Shown piece after piece: positions 11,320 to 60,555 of a DNA stretch of 62,475 nucleotides. Numbering within the stretch: the stretch's first letter is position 1; each line of letters begins with the position of its first letter. The notes under the pieces were generated by a model. The model did not search any database. It was not told where the DNA came from and saw only the letters and a program-made list of their open reading frames with translations. The translations under genes were made by a program, and so were the position numbers. The stretch is from a virus, in IMG/VR virus record IMGVR_UViG_3300042539_000900, positions 1-62,475 of that record; one strand, written 5' to 3'.

Positions 11320-12177
11320 TTATACCTTTAGAGACTTACTTAACATATCAATTACTAAATCTTGTTTTTCTACTGAAGTTAAAACATCATCTATATAATC
11401 TAACAGATTAATAAGTTTTTCGTTTCTAGTTAGTACATCAATACTTTTATTTAGATTTTGAATATATTTAGCTTTACCAGTAATCGGTAAACTATTAATT
11501 AAGTTATCAAGTGTTTTATATTCTTTTACCAATGCAATACTACGCTTAGGACCAATGCCTTCAACTCCGCTAATATTATCACCCGAGTCTCCTTCAATCA
11601 TTCTGGCGAAGGCATACTCTTTAGGAGTTAGATCGAAGTTCTCTGTTAGATAGTTTAAATCAACTTCTTTTCTAGAATACATATTAAAAATACTTACATC
11701 TTCTTTTAGCAGCTGATACAAGTCTCTATCGCTTGATACAATCCAAGTATGGTTATATTTGCTACTAAGATGTTTAGAAAAGTATGCAATTATGTCGTCA
11801 GCTTCAATGCCTTTGAACTTAAAATGTTCAAAAGGTAATGCGTCAATAGTATCTGACAAACAGTTAAAGAACTCAGTAAAGCGTTCTTGCTCTTCTTCAG
11901 TACGTTCAACTTTTCTATTAGCTTTGTATTCTGGGAACATACTCTTTCTATATGCAGAAGCGCCAGAGTCAAAACAACAAATAATGCGTTTTGCTTCATA
12001 GCTCTTTCCCAGACTAGTAACTGTTCTAATATAATCTTCAGTAAAGTTATTATAATTTTTACGTTGTAAATATCTAAAAGCTAGATTTACTCCGTCAATA
12101 AGCAATAGATTGTTTGCATTTTCTACTGCTTTTTTAGCTTGCGTTAATTCTGCAAGATCATCCCAATTTGTTACCAC
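11320..12177 (-). CDS. 5'-3' exonuclease (FEN/T5 exonuclease, RNase H-like)
   Basis: 285 residues. The N-terminus has LLIDGVNLAFRYL (metal-binding Asp), then CFDSGASAYRKSMFPEYKANR, GIEADDIIAYF and VSSDRDLYQLL. The helix-3-turn-helix DNA-binding segment GDSGDNISGVEGIGPKRS follows. This is the full FEN/5'-3' exonuclease pattern, and it should remove RNA primers and flaps during replication. A promoter for this gene lies at 12209-12237. Without a fused polymerase domain it works alongside the separate DNA polymerase at 23403. Confidence 0.94.
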   Translation of the reverse strand: MVTNWDDLAELTQAKKAVENANNLLLIDGVNLAFRYLQRKNYNNFTEDYIRTVTSLGKSYEAKRIICCFDSGASAYRKSMFPEYKANRKVERTEEEQERFTEFFNCLSDTIDALPFEHFKFKGIEADDIIAYFSKHLSSKYNHTWIVSSDRDLYQLLKEDVSIFNMYSRKEVDLNYLTENFDLTPKEYAFARMIEGDSGDNISGVEGIGPKRSIALVKEYKTLDNLINSLPITGKAKYIQNLNKSIDVLTRNEKLINLLDYIDDVLTSVEKQDLVIDMLSKSLKV

Positions 12178-40093: not shown

Positions 40094-40492
40094 ATGATTT
40101 CTAATAAATTAAGAGAGTATATTAAAGAGGTGCTATCTTCTAGGCCTTTAGACATATACTCAGAAGAAGAAGAAACTGTAAGCCATTCTGCATATGAATT
40201 ATTAACTTCAAGAAAAGATGTTAGTTATATTAAAGATGAAGATGACTACTTTGATGAAGAAGGCAATGATTTAACAAAAACAATAGGCAGTGCTAATTTA
40301 TTTGTAGCTGCTACTTTAGTATGTAAAGAATCAACTGATAAATATTATACATCAGACTTAACTGATGAAGAAAAAATTTCATTCGATAACGAATGGGAGA
40401 ATTTCTTGCAAAGTCTAATAGACGAAAGATTTATGCGAGAAATAAAACTAGTAGCTCAAAGTAAAATTAAGCTAATAGTTAATAACGAGTGA
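40094..40492 (+). CDS. Acidic hypothetical protein
   Basis: 132 residues, acidic (EEEETVSH, KDEDDYFDEEGND) and predicted mostly helical. Not recognised. It follows the coiled-coil membrane protein by one base and precedes the Hsp20 gene, whose leader hairpin begins at its TGA stop. It might be a small regulatory or anti-host protein; the sequence gives no direct clue. Confidence 0.7.
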   Translation: MISNKLREYIKEVLSSRPLDIYSEEEETVSHSAYELLTSRKDVSYIKDEDDYFDEEGNDLTKTIGSANLFVAATLVCKESTDKYYTSDLTDEEKISFDNEWENFLQSLIDERFMREIKLVAQSKIKLIVNNE

Positions 40493-40542
40493 GCTGCCTT
40501 TTAGGGGCTCAAAAATTCTTGCTTGTGAAAAGGAGAAAAAAT
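40490..40542 (+). promoter_or_regulatory. ROSE-like RNA thermometer in the Hsp20 leader
   Basis: Two hairpins fill the 50-base leader. Hairpin I: GAGC (40491-40494) with GCTC (40507-40510) plus CCT/AGG. Hairpin II (40516-40537): TTCTT-G-CTT pairs with AAGGAGAA, with G40521 left unpaired and U-G at the centre, closing on the Shine-Dalgarno AGGAG. The UUGCU anti-Shine-Dalgarno with a bulged G is the hallmark of ROSE thermometers, which open on heating and control small heat-shock genes of proteobacteria. Confidence 0.65.
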
Positions 40543-41028
40543 ATGACAGGCGTACAACAACTATTCCCCAGAGCATCGTTTGTGGGATTCGATCATCTAC
40601 TAAATGAATTGGATAGCGCAGTTCGACATGCGAACGACCACTATCCCCCACACAATATTATAAGAACAGGCGAAAGCGATTATTTAATCGAGCTTGCAGT
40701 AGCCGGATTCCCAGCTGATGCGCTAACAATAGAAGTTAAAGATCGCACATTAACAATTACTGGCGATTTTGATACTAATAAGCGTGAATATATTCATCGT
40801 GGTATATCTACGAAGAAATTTAAACGTACTTTTAGGCTGTCTGAACATGTAAAAGTACACGGAGCAGATCTTAAAGATGGAGTATTGTCAGTTGAACTGA
40901 AATATGTAGTCCCAGAAGAAATGCGTTCTCGTCTTATCCCAATTGGAAAAAACGAGGAGATCTTAAATGACACACATAGCACTAACACTAAGCAACTATC
41001 TACACAGTCCAATCGCAGAATTGATTAA
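40543..41028 (+). CDS. Small heat-shock protein Hsp20 (IbpA-like)
   Basis: 161 residues from ATG 40543 (AAGGAG 7 bases before); an upstream frame from 40489 has no ribosome site. The alpha-crystallin core runs from YPPHNIIRTGESDYLIELAV to the G-x-L segment DGVLSVEL, with FKRTFRLSEHVKV in between, and the C-terminal I-x-I motif is in RLIPIGKN. Hsp20 holds unfolding proteins as oligomers. Phage copies are known in marine myoviruses. Its end overlaps the DUF1127 gene by 62 bases. Likely heat-controlled through the leader. Confidence 0.94.
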   Translation: MTGVQQLFPRASFVGFDHLLNELDSAVRHANDHYPPHNIIRTGESDYLIELAVAGFPADALTIEVKDRTLTITGDFDTNKREYIHRGISTKKFKRTFRLSEHVKVHGADLKDGVLSVELKYVVPEEMRSRLIPIGKNEEILNDTHSTNTKQLSTQSNRRID

Positions 41029-41221
41029 AATGATTCGCGCGCTATTTTCTAAAACTGTAAATGTTTTAGATGAAAGTAGCGAAGAATATATTAAACGCAG
41101 AGACATTAAAGTTACTATTAAACAATTAGAAGCTTTAAGCGATGAAGAACTAAGAGATGTAGGTATTTGTAGAGGCGATATCGAAGATATAGCTCATGGT
41201 AGAGTTGATCGTCGATGGTAA
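40967..41221 (+). CDS. DUF1127 (YjiS-like) protein
   Basis: 84 residues. The C-terminal 45 residues hold the DUF1127 signature: L-x-x-L-S-D-E-E-L-R-D-V-G-I-C-R-G-D-I. In host bacteria such small Arg-rich proteins affect RNA turnover, phosphate/carbon balance and stress. Here it overlaps the Hsp20 gene, with GAGGAG 7 bases before ATG. DUF1127 proteins are mainly proteobacterial, so this supports the host assignment and recent transfer from a bacterium. Confidence 0.85.
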   Translation: MTHIALTLSNYLHSPIAELIKMIRALFSKTVNVLDESSEEYIKRRDIKVTIKQLEALSDEELRDVGICRGDIEDIAHGRVDRRW

Positions 41222-56807: not shown

Positions 56808-56884
<77 letters not shown>

Positions 56885-56889
56885 ATATT

Positions 56890-56966
56890 GTCCTCGTAGG
56901 CCAATAGGTAGAGTCAGCAGACTTAAAATCTGCGTAGTGTCGGTTCGAGTCCGACCGGGGACACCA
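56890..56966 (+). tRNA. tRNA with UAA anticodon (Leu UUA) but short variable loop
   Basis: 77 bases. Acceptor GTCCTCG/CGGGGAC, anticodon stem GCAGA/TCTGC, loop CTTAAAA (anticodon TAA), variable region of 5 bases (GTAGT), T arm GTCGG-TTCGAGT-CCGAC, ACCA end. A normal bacterial tRNA-Leu has a long variable arm; this one is class I. D-stem is also irregular (GGCC...GAGTC). Confidence 0.85.
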
Positions 56967-56982
56967 ATAAATGGAGTAAGAT

Positions 56983-57135
56983 ATGAAAAAATGGCCTTCT
57001 AACTATTATGCTACAGAACAAGAGTGCAAGAATCCTTTTTACAAATCTGCTACTCCTAAAAAGGCACAAAAAGCAGGTATCTATGGCTGGAGATCTTTCA
57101 GTAAAGAAAGTTTAGTCAAACCTGAAAACAAATAA
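56983..57135 (+). CDS. Small ORF between tRNA genes (50 residues)
   Basis: 50 residues, beginning KKWPSNYYATEQECKNPFYK and ending KESLVKPENK. GGAG precedes ATG by 6 bases. Not recognised; helical and basic. Reading frame with a proper ribosome site in the tRNA cluster suggests a real small protein. Confidence 0.7.
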   Translation: MKKWPSNYYATEQECKNPFYKSATPKKAQKAGIYGWRSFSKESLVKPENK

Positions 57136-57140
57136 TATAT

Positions 57141-57217
57141 CCGGGTGTAGCTCAGTTTGGTAGAGCGCTTGCTTTGGGAGCAAGATGTCGTGGGTTCAAA
57201 TCCTGCCACCCGGACCA
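57141..57217 (+). tRNA. tRNA-Pro (UGG)
   Basis: 77 bases. Acceptor CCGGGTG/CACCCGG, D arm GCTC...GAGC, anticodon loop TTTGGGA (TGG), T arm GTGGG-TTCAAAT-CCTGC, ACCA. Reads CCA. Confidence 0.96.
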
Positions 57218-57239
57218 ATAACTAAAAACAAAATATAGC

Positions 57240-57268
57240 TTGACTATCGATGAGTTATATACTATTAT
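57240..57268 (+). promoter_or_regulatory. Promoter inside the tRNA cluster
   Basis: TTGACT (57240-57245), 17-base spacer, TATTAT (57263-57268). It precedes a small ORF at 57293 and the tRNA genes that follow. Confidence 0.72.
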
Positions 57269-57292
57269 ATTAATATAGAATAGAGATTTTGT

Positions 57293-57433
57293 ATGAGTAA
57301 GAAAAGTAGTATTGATTATTCTGAATTAAATGGGTTAATGACAGCACTATCCCGTGCTAATTTGGATTCTACTACTCCTTATGAAGTACTAGCATGGCTA
57401 AAAGCTAGAATAGAATATTTGACTAAGAAATAA
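57293..57433 (+). CDS. Small ORF in the tRNA cluster (46 residues)
   Basis: 46 residues, starting SKKSSIDYSELNGLMTALSR and ending EYLTKK; helical, soluble. ATG is 25 bases after a consensus promoter but has only weak upstream purines (GAG). Not recognised. Confidence 0.6.
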   Translation: MSKKSSIDYSELNGLMTALSRANLDSTTPYEVLAWLKARIEYLTKK

Positions 57434-57434
57434 T

Positions 57435-57525
57435 GGAAGTGAGACTTGGTAGTCAGAGGAGTCTTATAAGCTCTTTGCGCCAGATTAGCGCCTTTGAGGT
57501 GGTTCGAATCCACCCACTTCTACCA
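57435..57525 (+). tRNA. tRNA-like gene, UAU anticodon with long variable arm
   Basis: 91 bases. Acceptor GGAAGTG/CACTTCT, anticodon stem GGAGT/GCTCT with loop CTTATAA (anticodon TAT, Ile by position), a long variable arm with GCGC/GCGC stem, T arm GGTGG-TTCGAAT-CCACC, ACCA. Ile tRNAs are class I, so a class II body is discordant; the D arm is also short (GACT-TGGT-AGTC). Confidence 0.75.
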
Positions 57526-57530
57526 ATAAT

Positions 57531-57607
57531 GCCCTAATAGCTCAGCTGGCCAGAGCAACCGCCTTGTAAGCGGTAGGTCCGCGGTTCGAATCCGTGTTGG
57601 GGCACCA
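57531..57607 (+). tRNA. tRNA-Thr (UGU)
   Basis: 77 bases. Acceptor GCCCTAA/TTGGGGC, D arm GCTC...GAGC, anticodon loop CTTGTAA (TGT), T arm CGCGG-TTCGAAT-CCGTG, ACCA. Reads ACA. Confidence 0.96.
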
Positions 57608-57634
57608 TAAACAATAAACTTTTAAGAGTAATTA

Positions 57635-58060
57635 ATGGATTTTATTTTTGATATTGACAGCACTATAAGTAACGATAATCACCGTTCTCACTACTTAAAT
57701 CAAGAGCGCAAAGATTGGGATAGTCACTATAAAGAGCTGGTTAATGATCCTACTATACCGCCCTCAGTAGCAGTTCTAGAAGCTCTGTACAATGATGGTC
57801 ACAATATTATTTTGTGTACGGGTCGTCCAGAGCAATACAGAAACCTAACTGTACAATGGTTAGAGAAACATAATGTACCCGCACACGATTTATTCATGAG
57901 ACAACCGCAAGACGGTTATGTAAAAAATGCGGAAGTCAAACGAATTATGATTGAAAGAATTAAAGAAAAAGGTTATAATCCAGTAGCCGTGTACGAAGAT
58001 AACCCGTACTCCGTGGAAATGTGGCGATCCTTGGGTCTAGTAGTTTACCAAGTTATATAG
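57635..58060 (+). CDS. Polynucleotide 3'-phosphatase-like HAD protein (Pnkp phosphatase domain type)
   Basis: 141 residues. FIFDIDSTISNDNHRSHYL has the HAD nucleophile D-x-D, IILCTGRPEQYRNLTVQWLE and HDLFMRQPQDGYVKNAEVKR match the T4 Pnkp 3'-phosphatase domain plan. Such enzymes heal cut RNA ends, for example host-cleaved tRNA. It lies among tRNA genes. It ends in TAG 58058, and the same frame stays open to 58255 through the next ORF, so amber readthrough would give a 206-residue protein. Confidence 0.8.
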   Translation: MDFIFDIDSTISNDNHRSHYLNQERKDWDSHYKELVNDPTIPPSVAVLEALYNDGHNIILCTGRPEQYRNLTVQWLEKHNVPAHDLFMRQPQDGYVKNAEVKRIMIERIKEKGYNPVAVYEDNPYSVEMWRSLGLVVYQVI

Positions 58061-58081
58061 CGCCTATTAAAGAGATTAGTA

Positions 58082-58255
58082 GTGAAATCAGTATTACAAC
58101 CCATACTCGACAGTTATTTAAAAAGATTTGCTAAAGCTGTAATAGCACGCAACTCTAAAGAAGAACAAATTTGTTTAAGTATGCTATCAGTATTGAGTCC
58201 AGATCATTATGCAGCGGCTATAAGAGTAAAAAAGAGACACACAGGAAATAAATAA
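58082..58255 (+). CDS. Small ORF in frame with the phosphatase (57 residues, GTG start)
   Basis: 57 residues from GTG 58082, helical and basic (DSYLKRFAKAVIARNSKEEQ). AGAG lies 7 bases before, so independent start is possible. It is exactly in frame with the phosphatase after TAG, separated by 7 sense codons, which allows a readthrough product. Its stop overlaps the HNH gene (TAATG). Confidence 0.6.
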   Translation: MKSVLQPILDSYLKRFAKAVIARNSKEEQICLSMLSVLSPDHYAAAIRVKKRHTGNK

Positions 58256-58776
58256 TGTCTGATACTTTAGTTTTAAATGCCGATGGACTACCAGTTAGTG
58301 TAGTGCCTTTGAGCGCAGTGAGCTGGCGAGAAGCTATTCTATATATGTATCACGACAAATGTGATGTATTAGAATGGTATGATGATTGGGTTGTGCATTC
58401 AGCCAATTGGGAAACTCGTGTTCCTGCAGTTATTATGCTTAAAGATTATTTAAAGCGTAAAACGTCAGTTAGATTTTCTAGAAGTAATGTGTACTTACGA
58501 GATGAGTATAAGTGTTTATATTGTAATTCTCAACTAAGCAATAAAACTGCTACAATGGATCATGTGTTACCGCTATCTCTAGGTGGTAAAACAAATTGGA
58601 CTAATATTGCTACTGCATGTGGTCCTTGTAATCATAAAAAAAGCAATAAAACAAAAATTAAACCAAGATATGCTCCTTATCAACCTAGCTATTTTGAATT
58701 AGTAGAAAAACGTAAGAAGTTACCTTTCTATGCTATAAAGCATGATAGTTGGAATAATTGGATATACTCAAATTAA
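58255..58776 (+). CDS. HNH endonuclease
   Basis: 173 residues. Y-K-C-L-Y-C-N-S-Q, then TATMDHVLPLSLGGKTNWTN and TACGPCNHKKSNKT, is the complete Cys-x-x-Cys...D-H...N...C-x-x-C-N-x-x-K HNH module. The first 90 residues are another domain (WREAILYMYHDKCDVLEW). It may be a homing-type, restriction-like or host-DNA-degrading nuclease. Position among tRNA genes is typical for mobile HNH genes. Confidence 0.92.
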   Translation: MSDTLVLNADGLPVSVVPLSAVSWREAILYMYHDKCDVLEWYDDWVVHSANWETRVPAVIMLKDYLKRKTSVRFSRSNVYLRDEYKCLYCNSQLSNKTATMDHVLPLSLGGKTNWTNIATACGPCNHKKSNKTKIKPRYAPYQPSYFELVEKRKKLPFYAIKHDSWNNWIYSN

Positions 58777-58823
58777 AAATTAGCTTGCTAGTTTAATTGT
58801 TATTTGTTATTATAAATAGTATT

Positions 58824-58915
58824 GGTGAGGTGCCTGAGAGGCCGAAAGGAGCGGTTTGCTAAACCGTCGTACCAGTAAAATGGTACCCAGGGTTCGAATC
58901 CCTGTCTCACCGCCA
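58824..58915 (+). tRNA. tRNA-Ser (GCU)
   Basis: 92 bases. Acceptor GGTGAGG/CTCACC region, anticodon loop TTGCTAA (GCT), long variable arm TACC/GGTA type, T arm CAGGG-TTCGAAT-CCCTG, GCCA. Class II body with Ser anticodon, as expected. TATAAATA occurs 6 bases upstream. Confidence 0.95.
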
Positions 58916-58932
58916 TTATTAGGATATAGTTT

Positions 58933-59103
58933 ATGGCTCTTTTAGTAAAAGAACAAAAAGCATTGGCTCAACTAGAACAAGCTTTTAAGAATTATTATGC
59001 TATTATTGTAGGTGAAGATCCTGAAGATTTAGGTATTGAACCAACTAAAACGCCAGAAGAACGTATGTTATACTTAGCTTCCTGGTTAAATACAAGTTAT
59101 TGA
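58933..59103 (+). CDS. Small ORF in the tRNA cluster (56 residues)
   Basis: 56 residues, starting ALLVKEQKALAQLEQAFKNY and ending YLASWLNTSY. It has a helix followed by an acidic turn (GEDPEDLGIEP). AGGATATAG precedes the ATG. Not recognised. Spacing to the tRNA genes is tight, so it is probably part of the same transcript. Confidence 0.65.
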   Translation: MALLVKEQKALAQLEQAFKNYYAIIVGEDPEDLGIEPTKTPEERMLYLASWLNTSY

Positions 59104-59108
59104 ATAAT

Positions 59109-59183
59109 GCGGAATTAGCTCAGTGGTAGAGCCCCTCGTTTACACCGAGATTGTCGGGAGTTCGAATCTCTCATTCCGCACCA
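59109..59183 (+). tRNA. tRNA-Val (UAC)
   Basis: 75 bases. Acceptor GCGGAAT/ATTCCGC, D arm GCTC-AGTGGTA-GAGC, anticodon stem CTCG/CGAG with loop TTTACAC (TAC), T arm GGGAG-TTCGAAT-CTCTC, ACCA. Reads GUA. Confidence 0.95.
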
Positions 59184-59189
59184 TAATAC

Positions 59190-59264
59190 GCGGGTGTAGC
59201 TCAGTGGTAGAGCGTCTGCCTTCCAAGCAGAATGTCGAGGGTCCGATCCCCTTCACCCGCTCCA
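59190..59264 (+). tRNA. tRNA-Gly (UCC)
   Basis: 75 bases. Acceptor GCGGGTG/CACCCGC, anticodon loop CTTCCAA (TCC), T arm GAGGG with loop TCCGATC (not the usual TTCGATC), end TCCA. Reads GGA. Confidence 0.95.
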
Positions 59265-59607
59265 ATTTACCGGTTTTCGGTTAAGTCCGGTCTACTACTG
59301 GCAAGCTGCTTGGCTCGATTAAGTTGCGGTATGAAAGTTAGCCCAAGGGTAAGATGTAGATAAAAACCGTATTAGTTTTATTCATCCTGTATCAGGATGA
59401 TAAGATAGAGGACTTAGGCTGTTGTAAATCTATCTGATCGAGAATTAACTCGAAATTAGTAATAGTCTATCTTCACATTGGATGTCGGTGTGAAAAGAAA
59501 TAAAATAGTTTCTGCGTAGCGGTGGCTATAGGGCATCCCGTATTTTAGGATCAGTTCAGCAACTAAAAAAGCTTGGATGTAGCAAAAAGATGATCCTGTA
59601 TAAATCT
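59265..59607 (+). ncRNA. Unexplained structured non-coding RNA, about 340 bases
   Basis: No ORF is supported. Predicted pairs: ACCGG/CCGGT near 59270-59297; AAGTCC/GGACTT (long range); TCATCCTG/CAGGATGA hairpin with a 3-base loop near 59385; AAGATAGA/TCTATCTT; TCGAG/CTCGA; TTCACA/TGTGAA; AGGATCA/TGATCCT closing the 3' end. It sits between two tRNA genes and is followed directly by a tRNA. Large ornate RNAs of GOLLD/ROOL type occur in phage tRNA regions, but I cannot match it to one. Confidence 0.6.
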
Positions 59608-59682
59608 GGTCCTAGAGCATGATGGCTATGCACGCGCCTCTAAAACGCTGAAATGCAGGTTCAATTCCTGTTAGGACCACCA
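59608..59682 (+). tRNA. tRNA-like gene with CUA (amber) anticodon
   Basis: 75 bases with full geometry: acceptor GGTCCTA/TAGGACC, D arm GCAT-GATGGCT-ATGC, 7-base anticodon loop CTCTAAA (anticodon CTA), variable GAAAT, T arm GCAGG-TTCAATT-CCTGT, ACCA. The anticodon stem CGCGC/ACGCT has only three pairs with mismatches at both ends. It reads UAG if charged. Confidence 0.7.
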
Positions 59683-59743
59683 ACAAAAAGAGGGAGACTT
59701 ACAAATGAAAGAGTTTCATTCGTAGATAAAAAAGCCACCTTAA

Positions 59744-59787
59744 CCTTGATTACAGCTTAATTATAATTTATATTAACTTAATCAAGG
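59744..59787 (+). promoter_or_regulatory. Promoter overlapping a ribosome-site-masking inverted repeat
   Basis: Promoter: TTGATT (59746-59751), 17-base spacer, TATATT (59769-59774). Inverted repeat CCTTGATTA (59744-59752) / TAATCAAGG (59779-59787) spans 26 bases; its right arm covers the AAGGAG ribosome site of the gene at 59796 and its left arm covers the -35. Readthrough RNA would mask the site, promoter RNA would not. Confidence 0.65.
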
Positions 59788-59795
59788 AGAAAATA

Positions 59796-60257
59796 ATGTC
59801 TATAGAACTAAAAATCAAATCAAAGCACCTTTCAGAAGAAGCTCGTATCATTCGTTTTGAAGAGCGCAAGCTACTCAAGCAGCATCAGTGGTCTCTCAGC
59901 AAATATAGAGAAGCTGGACACAACGACATATACCCACGCTGGCATGATAAAGCGTTTATTAGTTATAATTCGCTCAATCGCCATCGTCGTTGGGATGTTC
60001 GTAACGAGAATCGTGCTACCTTCCTTGCTCGTGCTTATCTCGCTGGCAAATCATATAAGTCTGTTGAGAATAAGTGCAATGATACATCTGTACTTCGTGC
60101 TCATATACTTCCTCGTGTTTGCGAGATGATAAACAAGTATGGACCTGCTGCTGATAAACTGAGCAAGAAGTGGAACAACGAGCGTAAGCGTTATGAGTAC
60201 GACGCAGAACCTTGGAAGGCTCACTGCGAAAAAGTAAAGACTTGGATTGAAAGCTGA
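59796..60257 (+). CDS. Conserved hypothetical protein in the tRNA region
   Basis: 153 residues, basic, Arg-rich. ARIIRFEERKLLKQHQWSLS, SLNRHRRWDVRNENRATFLA and YLAGKSYKSVENKC form a recurring phage pattern (H-R...D-V-R-x-E-x-R-A...A-x-A-x-x-x-G-x-x-Y). Coding sequence is GC-richer and more host-like than nearby genes. Probably highly expressed and nucleic-acid-binding. Expression appears hairpin controlled (see 59744-59787). Confidence 0.75.
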   Translation: MSIELKIKSKHLSEEARIIRFEERKLLKQHQWSLSKYREAGHNDIYPRWHDKAFISYNSLNRHRRWDVRNENRATFLARAYLAGKSYKSVENKCNDTSVLRAHILPRVCEMINKYGPAADKLSKKWNNERKRYEYDAEPWKAHCEKVKTWIES

Positions 60258-60470
60258 TATATACTATTTGGATGGATACTGCAACCAAGCAAGTAAGGTA
60301 ACTTACATGTTCATGCGGTTATGATAGTATCATCGAGGTCCACAGACCATCCAGTTATTAATTTGTGGATAGTACGTGATATGAGTCTAACCCACGTTAC
60401 ACTAGCGTGAAGTGATCCTTGGCTCCGGCTCTATGGATCGGTGTGACAGCTCGGAGAGACGAGCGCTTAT
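60258..60470 (+). ncRNA. Second structured non-coding stretch before tRNA-Leu
   Basis: No ORF is supported in this 213-base gap. Pairs: TGGATGG (60269-60275) with CCATCCA (60347-60353); GTAAG (60293-60297) with CTTAC (60302-60306); GGTCC...; GATCC/GGATC near 60415-60440; GCTC/GAGC near 60450-60463. Dense complementarity suggests one or two folded RNAs, possibly part of the tRNA transcript. Confidence 0.5.
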
Positions 60471-60555
60471 GCGGGTATGGCGAAATTGGCAGACGCACTA
60501 GATTTAGGTTCTAGCGCCGCAAGGCGTGGGGGTTCAAGTCCCTCTACCCGCACCA
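60471..60555 (+). tRNA. tRNA-Leu (UAG)
   Basis: 85 bases. Acceptor GCGGGTA/TACCCGC, anticodon stem CTAGA/TCTAG with loop TTTAGGT (anticodon TAG), long variable arm CGCC-GCAA-GGCG, T arm GGGGG-TTCAAGT-CCCTC, ACCA. Class II body as expected. Reads CUA/CUN. Confidence 0.96.

Follow-up and report, generated by a model that had tools for sequence, protein, structure and literature searches.

RNA thermometers of the ROSE type are defined by a U(U/C)GCU motif (PMC3669281). The closest described systems to the one reported here are the two-hairpin ROSE elements of Pseudomonas, which repress at 25 °C and open at 42 °C: on warming hairpin 2 melts and hairpin 1 stays closed, and once the P. aeruginosa element is deprived of its unpaired G, expression is repressed (PMC3669281). 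In the crystal structure solved for another ROSE-like element, a U.G pair, a bulged G and a C-G pair are arranged in the same geometry (PMC11342760). Bradyrhizobium ROSE1 and the E. coli ibpA ROSE element (RF00435) have three to four hairpins (PMC3669281), and the cyanobacterial hsp17 thermometer, which also controls a small heat-shock gene, consists of a single hairpin with a 1x3 internal bulge (PMC4477652). Only a few RNA thermometers have been described in phages (PMC11182007); lambda cIII and the fourU elements of SPbeta blyA and sigma70 work with other motifs and on other genes, and none of the three is of the ROSE type or sits on a chaperone gene. We found no ROSE-type thermometer in phages in the open literature.

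The window, by which we mean the whole 62,475-nucleotide stretch of DNA analysed here, comes from a marine phage and carries a small heat-shock gene, hsp20, behind a leader that closely follows the Pseudomonas ibpA plan (PMC3669281; RF02523 lineage). Both elements span about 60 bases, precede a class-A small heat-shock protein (sHSP) gene and fold into two hairpins, of which hairpin 2 pairs U(U/C)GCU, with its unpaired G, to the Shine-Dalgarno (SD) sequence; the unpaired-G module of Pseudomonas hairpin 1, GGGAUGCCGAAGACGGGUUCC, is likewise common to the phage leader. The phage element differs in being A+U-rich, in lying in phage genomes, in a hairpin 2 that is predicted to be somewhat weaker and in scoring below the Rfam cut-off, and many of its phage relatives have a T4-like late promoter and not a heat-shock promoter. 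With Bradyrhizobium ROSE1 and E. coli ibpA it shares the anti-SD core and the class of target gene, but it has two hairpins. Like the phage thermometers named above it would place translation in a phage genome under temperature control, and like the hsp17 thermometer it precedes a small heat-shock gene, but cyanophages have the ROSE type instead of the hsp17 type. We put at roughly 0.8 the probability that the leader is a two-hairpin RNA thermometer of the ROSE_3 lineage that moves with the class-A sHSP gene in phages. The features of the locus are as follows.

40490..40511, + strand: hairpin 1, UGAGC-U(G)CC paired with GG-G-GCUCA; seen in the sequence, the fold and the covariation, and in 233 of 239 distinct leaders
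40493-40542, + strand: hsp20 leader, 50 bases with two hairpins
40516..40537, + strand: hairpin 2, the presumed sensing hairpin, which hides the SD; seen in the folds and conserved in essentially all phage hsp20 leaders
40519..40523, + strand: UUGCU anti-SD core with unpaired G40521, the ROSE-defining motif, read from the sequence
40530..40535, + strand: SD sequence of hsp20, AAGGAG, read from the sequence
40543..41028, + strand: hsp20, class-A sHSP of 161 aa (PF00011, E 4.5e-14; phrog_432 Hsp20)
40546..40551, + strand: ACAGGC, codons 2-3, complementary to the anti-SD arm GCUUGU (40521-40526); a hypothetical pairing, found in the window clade only

The hsp20 gene starts with the ATG at 40543; 50 bases separate it from the stop codon (40490-40492) of the ORF before it. 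Its product belongs to the class-A (IbpA-like) sHSPs, having an alpha-crystallin domain with the PPxN and AG signatures; these read YPPHN and AVAGF in the window protein, the majority of other Hsp20s having YPPYN. The 3' end of hsp20 is overlapped by an ORF (40967-41221) for a DUF1127 protein (PF06568, E 3e-9), and a DUF1127-like motif follows hsp20 in 34 of the 73 window-clade loci with enough sequence. DUF1127 is frequent in alphaproteobacteria, which gives a hint at the host of the window phage. Elsewhere in the window ten predicted tRNA genes are clustered (56808-60555), one of which ARAGORN calls as tRNA-Pyl with anticodon CTA (59608-59682), possibly an amber-reading tRNA.

When the leader was folded alone, exactly hairpins 1 and 2 were obtained at 15, 25 and 37 °C, in agreement with the two-hairpin leader of 50 bases that the earlier note had described. 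Its account of the second hairpin also held: UUCUU(G)CUU (40516-40524) and AAGGAGAA (40530-40537) enclose a 5-base loop (40525-40529), so that the UUGCU core, with one unpaired G (G40521, next to a U.G pair), faces the SD. Hairpin 1, in whose stem the upstream gene's UGA stop (40490-40492) is embedded, repeats this module of U.G pair, unpaired G and C-G pair, with unpaired G40496 adjoining the pair U40495.G40506; the earlier note does not mention that repeat. The predicted stability of hairpin 2 at 37 °C is -3.5 kcal/mol in the window against -4.4 for P. aeruginosa ibpA, and removal of the unpaired G from the window hairpin lowers the prediction to -7.3 kcal/mol. Melting is predicted, crudely, near 56 °C. 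In leader-only folds across phage clades the SD is on average unpaired with a probability of 0.03–0.16 at 20 °C, compared with 0.46 for 100 control genes, and this probability climbs with temperature.

Hsp20 relatives are present in 507 phage-collection records, and we assembled 407 hsp20 loci, comprising phage isolates and viral relatives drawn in by five protein queries. A core pattern, T[TC]GC[TA]...GGA at most 45 bases from the start, was found in 394 of the 403 leaders that could be scored, from viral contigs and phage isolates alike. Eight of the nine misses read AUAACGCUUAACGGAGGUUAU, that is, the plan is kept by compensatory changes such as the earlier note had said should be sought in related phages. 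In the ninth, L229, the entire element stands ahead of a small gene that precedes hsp20; the same is true of L220, where the pattern before hsp20 itself is a chance match. All nine misses are thus accounted for, and relatives that keep Hsp20 but lose the pairing, which the earlier note had named as fatal to its proposal, did not turn up. Among 145 other AGGAG-preceded ORFs of the same loci 10 match the pattern, two of them being the relocated elements of L220 and L229. The hairpin-1 module is present in 233 of 239 distinct leaders, about 7.5 being expected from shuffles. Ten further named isolates all have two hairpins of the ROSE plan. Eight fit the pattern as it stands; in S-CREM2 CUUGCCU goes with AGGGAG, so that a U-A pair of the core has become C-G, and the Callisto leader is a near variant with UUGCG. 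The element is found on hsp20 of T4-like cyanophages, SAR11 and OM43 phages, a Sinorhizobium jumbo phage and uncultured relatives. As nearly every phage Hsp20 gene examined has it, chaperone and switch were apparently acquired together.

The two relocated elements (L220:1248-1487 and L229:1239-1454) precede a short gene placed directly ahead of hsp20, which suggests that the switch has been shifted to head a two-gene unit. The short-gene product of L220 is weakly phasin-like (PF09361, E 0.014). In two jumbo phages, L496 (Callisto) and L086 (Phosso), a clpS-like gene follows shortly after hsp20.

Covariation gave the same picture. Among 48 window-clade leaders aligned by MAFFT without fitting, 93% of cells were paired, and the covariation score was 0.324, against 0.130 for shuffles that leave sequence relatedness in place and 0.03–0.07 when the partners were slid. 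Model-fitted alignments reaching other phages and bacteria scored 0.461 and 0.507, values that the fitting biases towards the structure. Also without fitting, hairpin 2 had its innermost pair (U-A or A-U) formed in 95.8% of cases versus 73.7% in shuffles, and the second flanking pair in 74.5% versus 43.5%. A covariance model of the window clade made 82 matches in 382 kb, all of which fall on hsp20 leaders or head an hsp20 gene pair. A model built without any window-clade sequence still recovered the window leader with 46.5 bits (E 2.1e-8); this leave-clade-out model also finds the P. aeruginosa ibpA leader (34.9 bits) and makes one match per genome in six small marine bacterial genomes, whose hsp20 leaders are among those of the bacterial scan described below. 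The record of Pseudomonas phage Y7, marked UNVERIFIED and with an hsp20 region resembling the P. aeruginosa chromosome, served solely as the Pseudomonas ibpA reference. Two weaker hits were set aside: 59745-59798, the next-best hit in the window after the leader (15.3 bits, E 0.25), is probably chance and no second ROSE copy, and a weak match in HTVC115P (11391-11442) lies inside the DNA polymerase gene and was taken as chance. The former ends at the start of an ORF (59796-60257).

The curated Rfam models were more reserved. Searched at gathering and at E 10, the Rfam ROSE models gave no ROSE match in the window, and RF00435 gave none on 11 records, with the control genomes silent too. ROSE_3 (RF02523) finds phage leaders at full length and in the correct place, best on L118 (35.8 bits, E 0.001 over all of Rfam), followed by L352 (34.7) and Melnitz (34.1), and within the window clade on L024 (29.4 bits). 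Its curated cut-off of 43 bits was reached by no phage leader and the window leader was not matched, so that by score the phage element is no formal ROSE_3 member, though anatomically related: the ROSE_3 consensus has a hairpin 1, GGGAUGCCGAA..UCGGGUCCC, with the matching unpaired-G module, and hairpin 2 is also shared. The Rfam search proposed earlier therefore succeeded for relatives, below the cut-off, and failed for the window itself.

Judged by the sequence, we consider the leader a genuine ROSE-type element and a relative of the bacterial ROSE switch on the same gene. In the 3'-most hairpin U(U/C)GCU, with its unpaired G, pairs with the SD (40519-40523 with 40530-40535), a further hairpin lies 5' of the sensing hairpin, and an sHSP gene follows, with model matches restricted to hsp20 leaders. 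The ROSE identity first suggested for this leader is thus backed by the covariation, the ROSE_3 matches on relatives, the Pseudomonas ibpA anatomy and the leaders of bacterial class-A genes. As to the last, one genome scan found the core in 63 of 63 distinct bacterial hsp20 leaders, mostly from SAR11, SAR86 and PS1-type bacteria.

Where the gene came from is less simple. In the protein tree the window and C48C1 fall in a phage-only clade (100%) with no well-resolved bacterial sister, which speaks against a recent host origin of the window hsp20; phages form several groups, with 8 changes against 24 when shuffled, and the deep branches are unresolved. Some "bacterial" relatives nested among the phages (L415, L425, L426, L434 and L437) may be phage contigs in metagenome bins. 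In a published phylogeny cyanophage sHSPs are nearer to bacterial class A than to cyanobacterial sHSPs, and no sHSP was reported from 13 Prochlorococcus genomes (PMC3827213), so the cyanophage gene apparently does not come from the present host. The description of the chaperone as host-derived is therefore partly right but too strong, given this phylogeny and the deep phage-only clades. Taken with the tree and PMC3827213, the presence of the element on bacterial relatives suggests that gene and switch travelled together.

In 119 distinct leaders hairpin 1 is preceded, at a distance of 9–14 bases, by a T4-late-promoter-like TATAnATA, and upstream of the L003-L080 hsp20 leaders the late-promoter-like TATAAATA keeps a tight spacing to hairpin 1 (mode 13 bases), suggesting that the mRNA begins at hairpin 1. 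By the T4 rule, TATAnATA at 9–14 bases would start the message about there. The window has no clear copy of TATAnATA before hairpin 1, and its hsp20 may be read through from the preceding gene.

In the proposed mechanism, hairpin 2 would hide the SD at low temperature or low stress; on warming its weak core, a U.G pair beside an unpaired G, would open and allow ribosomes to start Hsp20 synthesis. Hairpin 1, at or close to the mRNA 5' end, would be a stable module that aids folding or protects the mRNA. The structure is conserved, it covaries, it is specific to hsp20 and its anatomy is that of a tested thermometer. By homology temperature control of phage hsp20 is likely, and we infer that the hairpin would open with temperature in the phage's host, within the relevant range. 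The main point against a thermometer is a predicted fold: once at least 15 coding bases are added to the window sequence, GCUUGU is predicted to pair with ACAGGC and the SD is free at every temperature. On whether the SD is single-stranded at low temperature, the other finding that the earlier note had named as fatal, the folds hence disagree, as the leader alone hides it and the window fold with coding bases frees it. Further points against are the failure of the Rfam ROSE models on the window and of every phage leader to reach the ROSE_3 cut-off, the unexceptional folding energy of the leader on its own, the crudeness of the predicted melting and a sea temperature that hardly changes over a single infection.

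A serious addition or alternative to the thermometer is feedback by the protein itself. The leader could be mainly an Hsp20-binding site, through which Hsp20 would block translation of its own message and release it only when misfolded protein titrates the chaperone away; temperature would then be secondary. We hold this to be possible, though tentatively, as the principal function. In E. coli, IbpA binds the ROSE-bearing message from which it is made and represses it, for which R93 is required (PMC10474464). Apart from the window and C48C1 clades, almost every phage Hsp20 that could be scored retains this arginine, and so do 38 of the 39 bacterial relatives (the pattern did not score the remaining one); the bacterial relatives also have the same leader. 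The window Hsp20, however, lacks the arginine of self-repressing IbpA: K replaces R93 there and is fixed in its clade (54 of 54 distinct proteins), as it is in the C48C1 clade (40 of 40), and R93K is repression-defective in E. coli IbpA (PMC10474464). If the leader is an sHSP-binding site, the Hsp20 of either partner, host or phage, could also act on the message of the other.

The window fold with coding bases also raises a two-state switch, in which the anti-SD arm GCUUGU would pair alternatively with ACAGGC and free the SD, with the state selected otherwise than by simple melting. All 48 distinct genes of the window clade have ACA GGC, although GGC accounts for about 20% of their Gly codons, and the duplex is stronger in that clade than in synonymous shuffles (-6.94 versus -4.50). 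Per sequence the signal is weak, however, with about 11% of shuffles equally strong and the sequences closely related, and some other hsp20 codons are equally invariant. The helix may be a genuine second state or a coincidence arising from a conserved gene start; as a general mechanism the pairing was rejected, since the excess is seen in the window clade only and in no other clade, and for the leader as a whole we think a two-state switch unlikely. We give similarly little weight to a combined scheme in which the shared ROSE sensor and the kept Arg would let phage and host Hsp20 control each other, while in the window clade the Arg is lost and the anti-SD:coding helix may have assumed some of that role. 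The scheme builds on the common ROSE switch and on R93 being kept outside the window and C48C1 clades, and the mutual control of translation would take place during infection.

Somewhat less probable still is that the leader acts as a fixed translation brake or as a protein-binding hairpin (for example for the phage repressor RegA) and is no thermometer. In several cyanophages hsp20 lies beside regA, and the TATAnATA of the 119 leaders stands so close before hairpin 1 that selection may act on structure at the start of the mRNA as such. Yet what is conserved is precisely the core of ROSE elements, before precisely the gene that they control, and it is common to bacteria and to phages of quite different gene order. 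Finally, a chance hairpin in an AT-rich leader, with which the unremarkable folding energy of the leader region on its own (z -0.91) would agree, is ruled out for practical purposes by the conservation, the covariation and the specificity of the model.

As far as the open literature shows, a ROSE-type element is new to viruses, and it is widespread on phage hsp20 genes. The cultured phages P-SSM2, S-CAM1, Melnitz and HTVC115P make the thermometer question directly testable. Altogether, the results indicate that phages carry a chaperone gene together with its RNA switch, and that both are apparently brought to hosts like Prochlorococcus, where no sHSP gene was found (PMC3827213).
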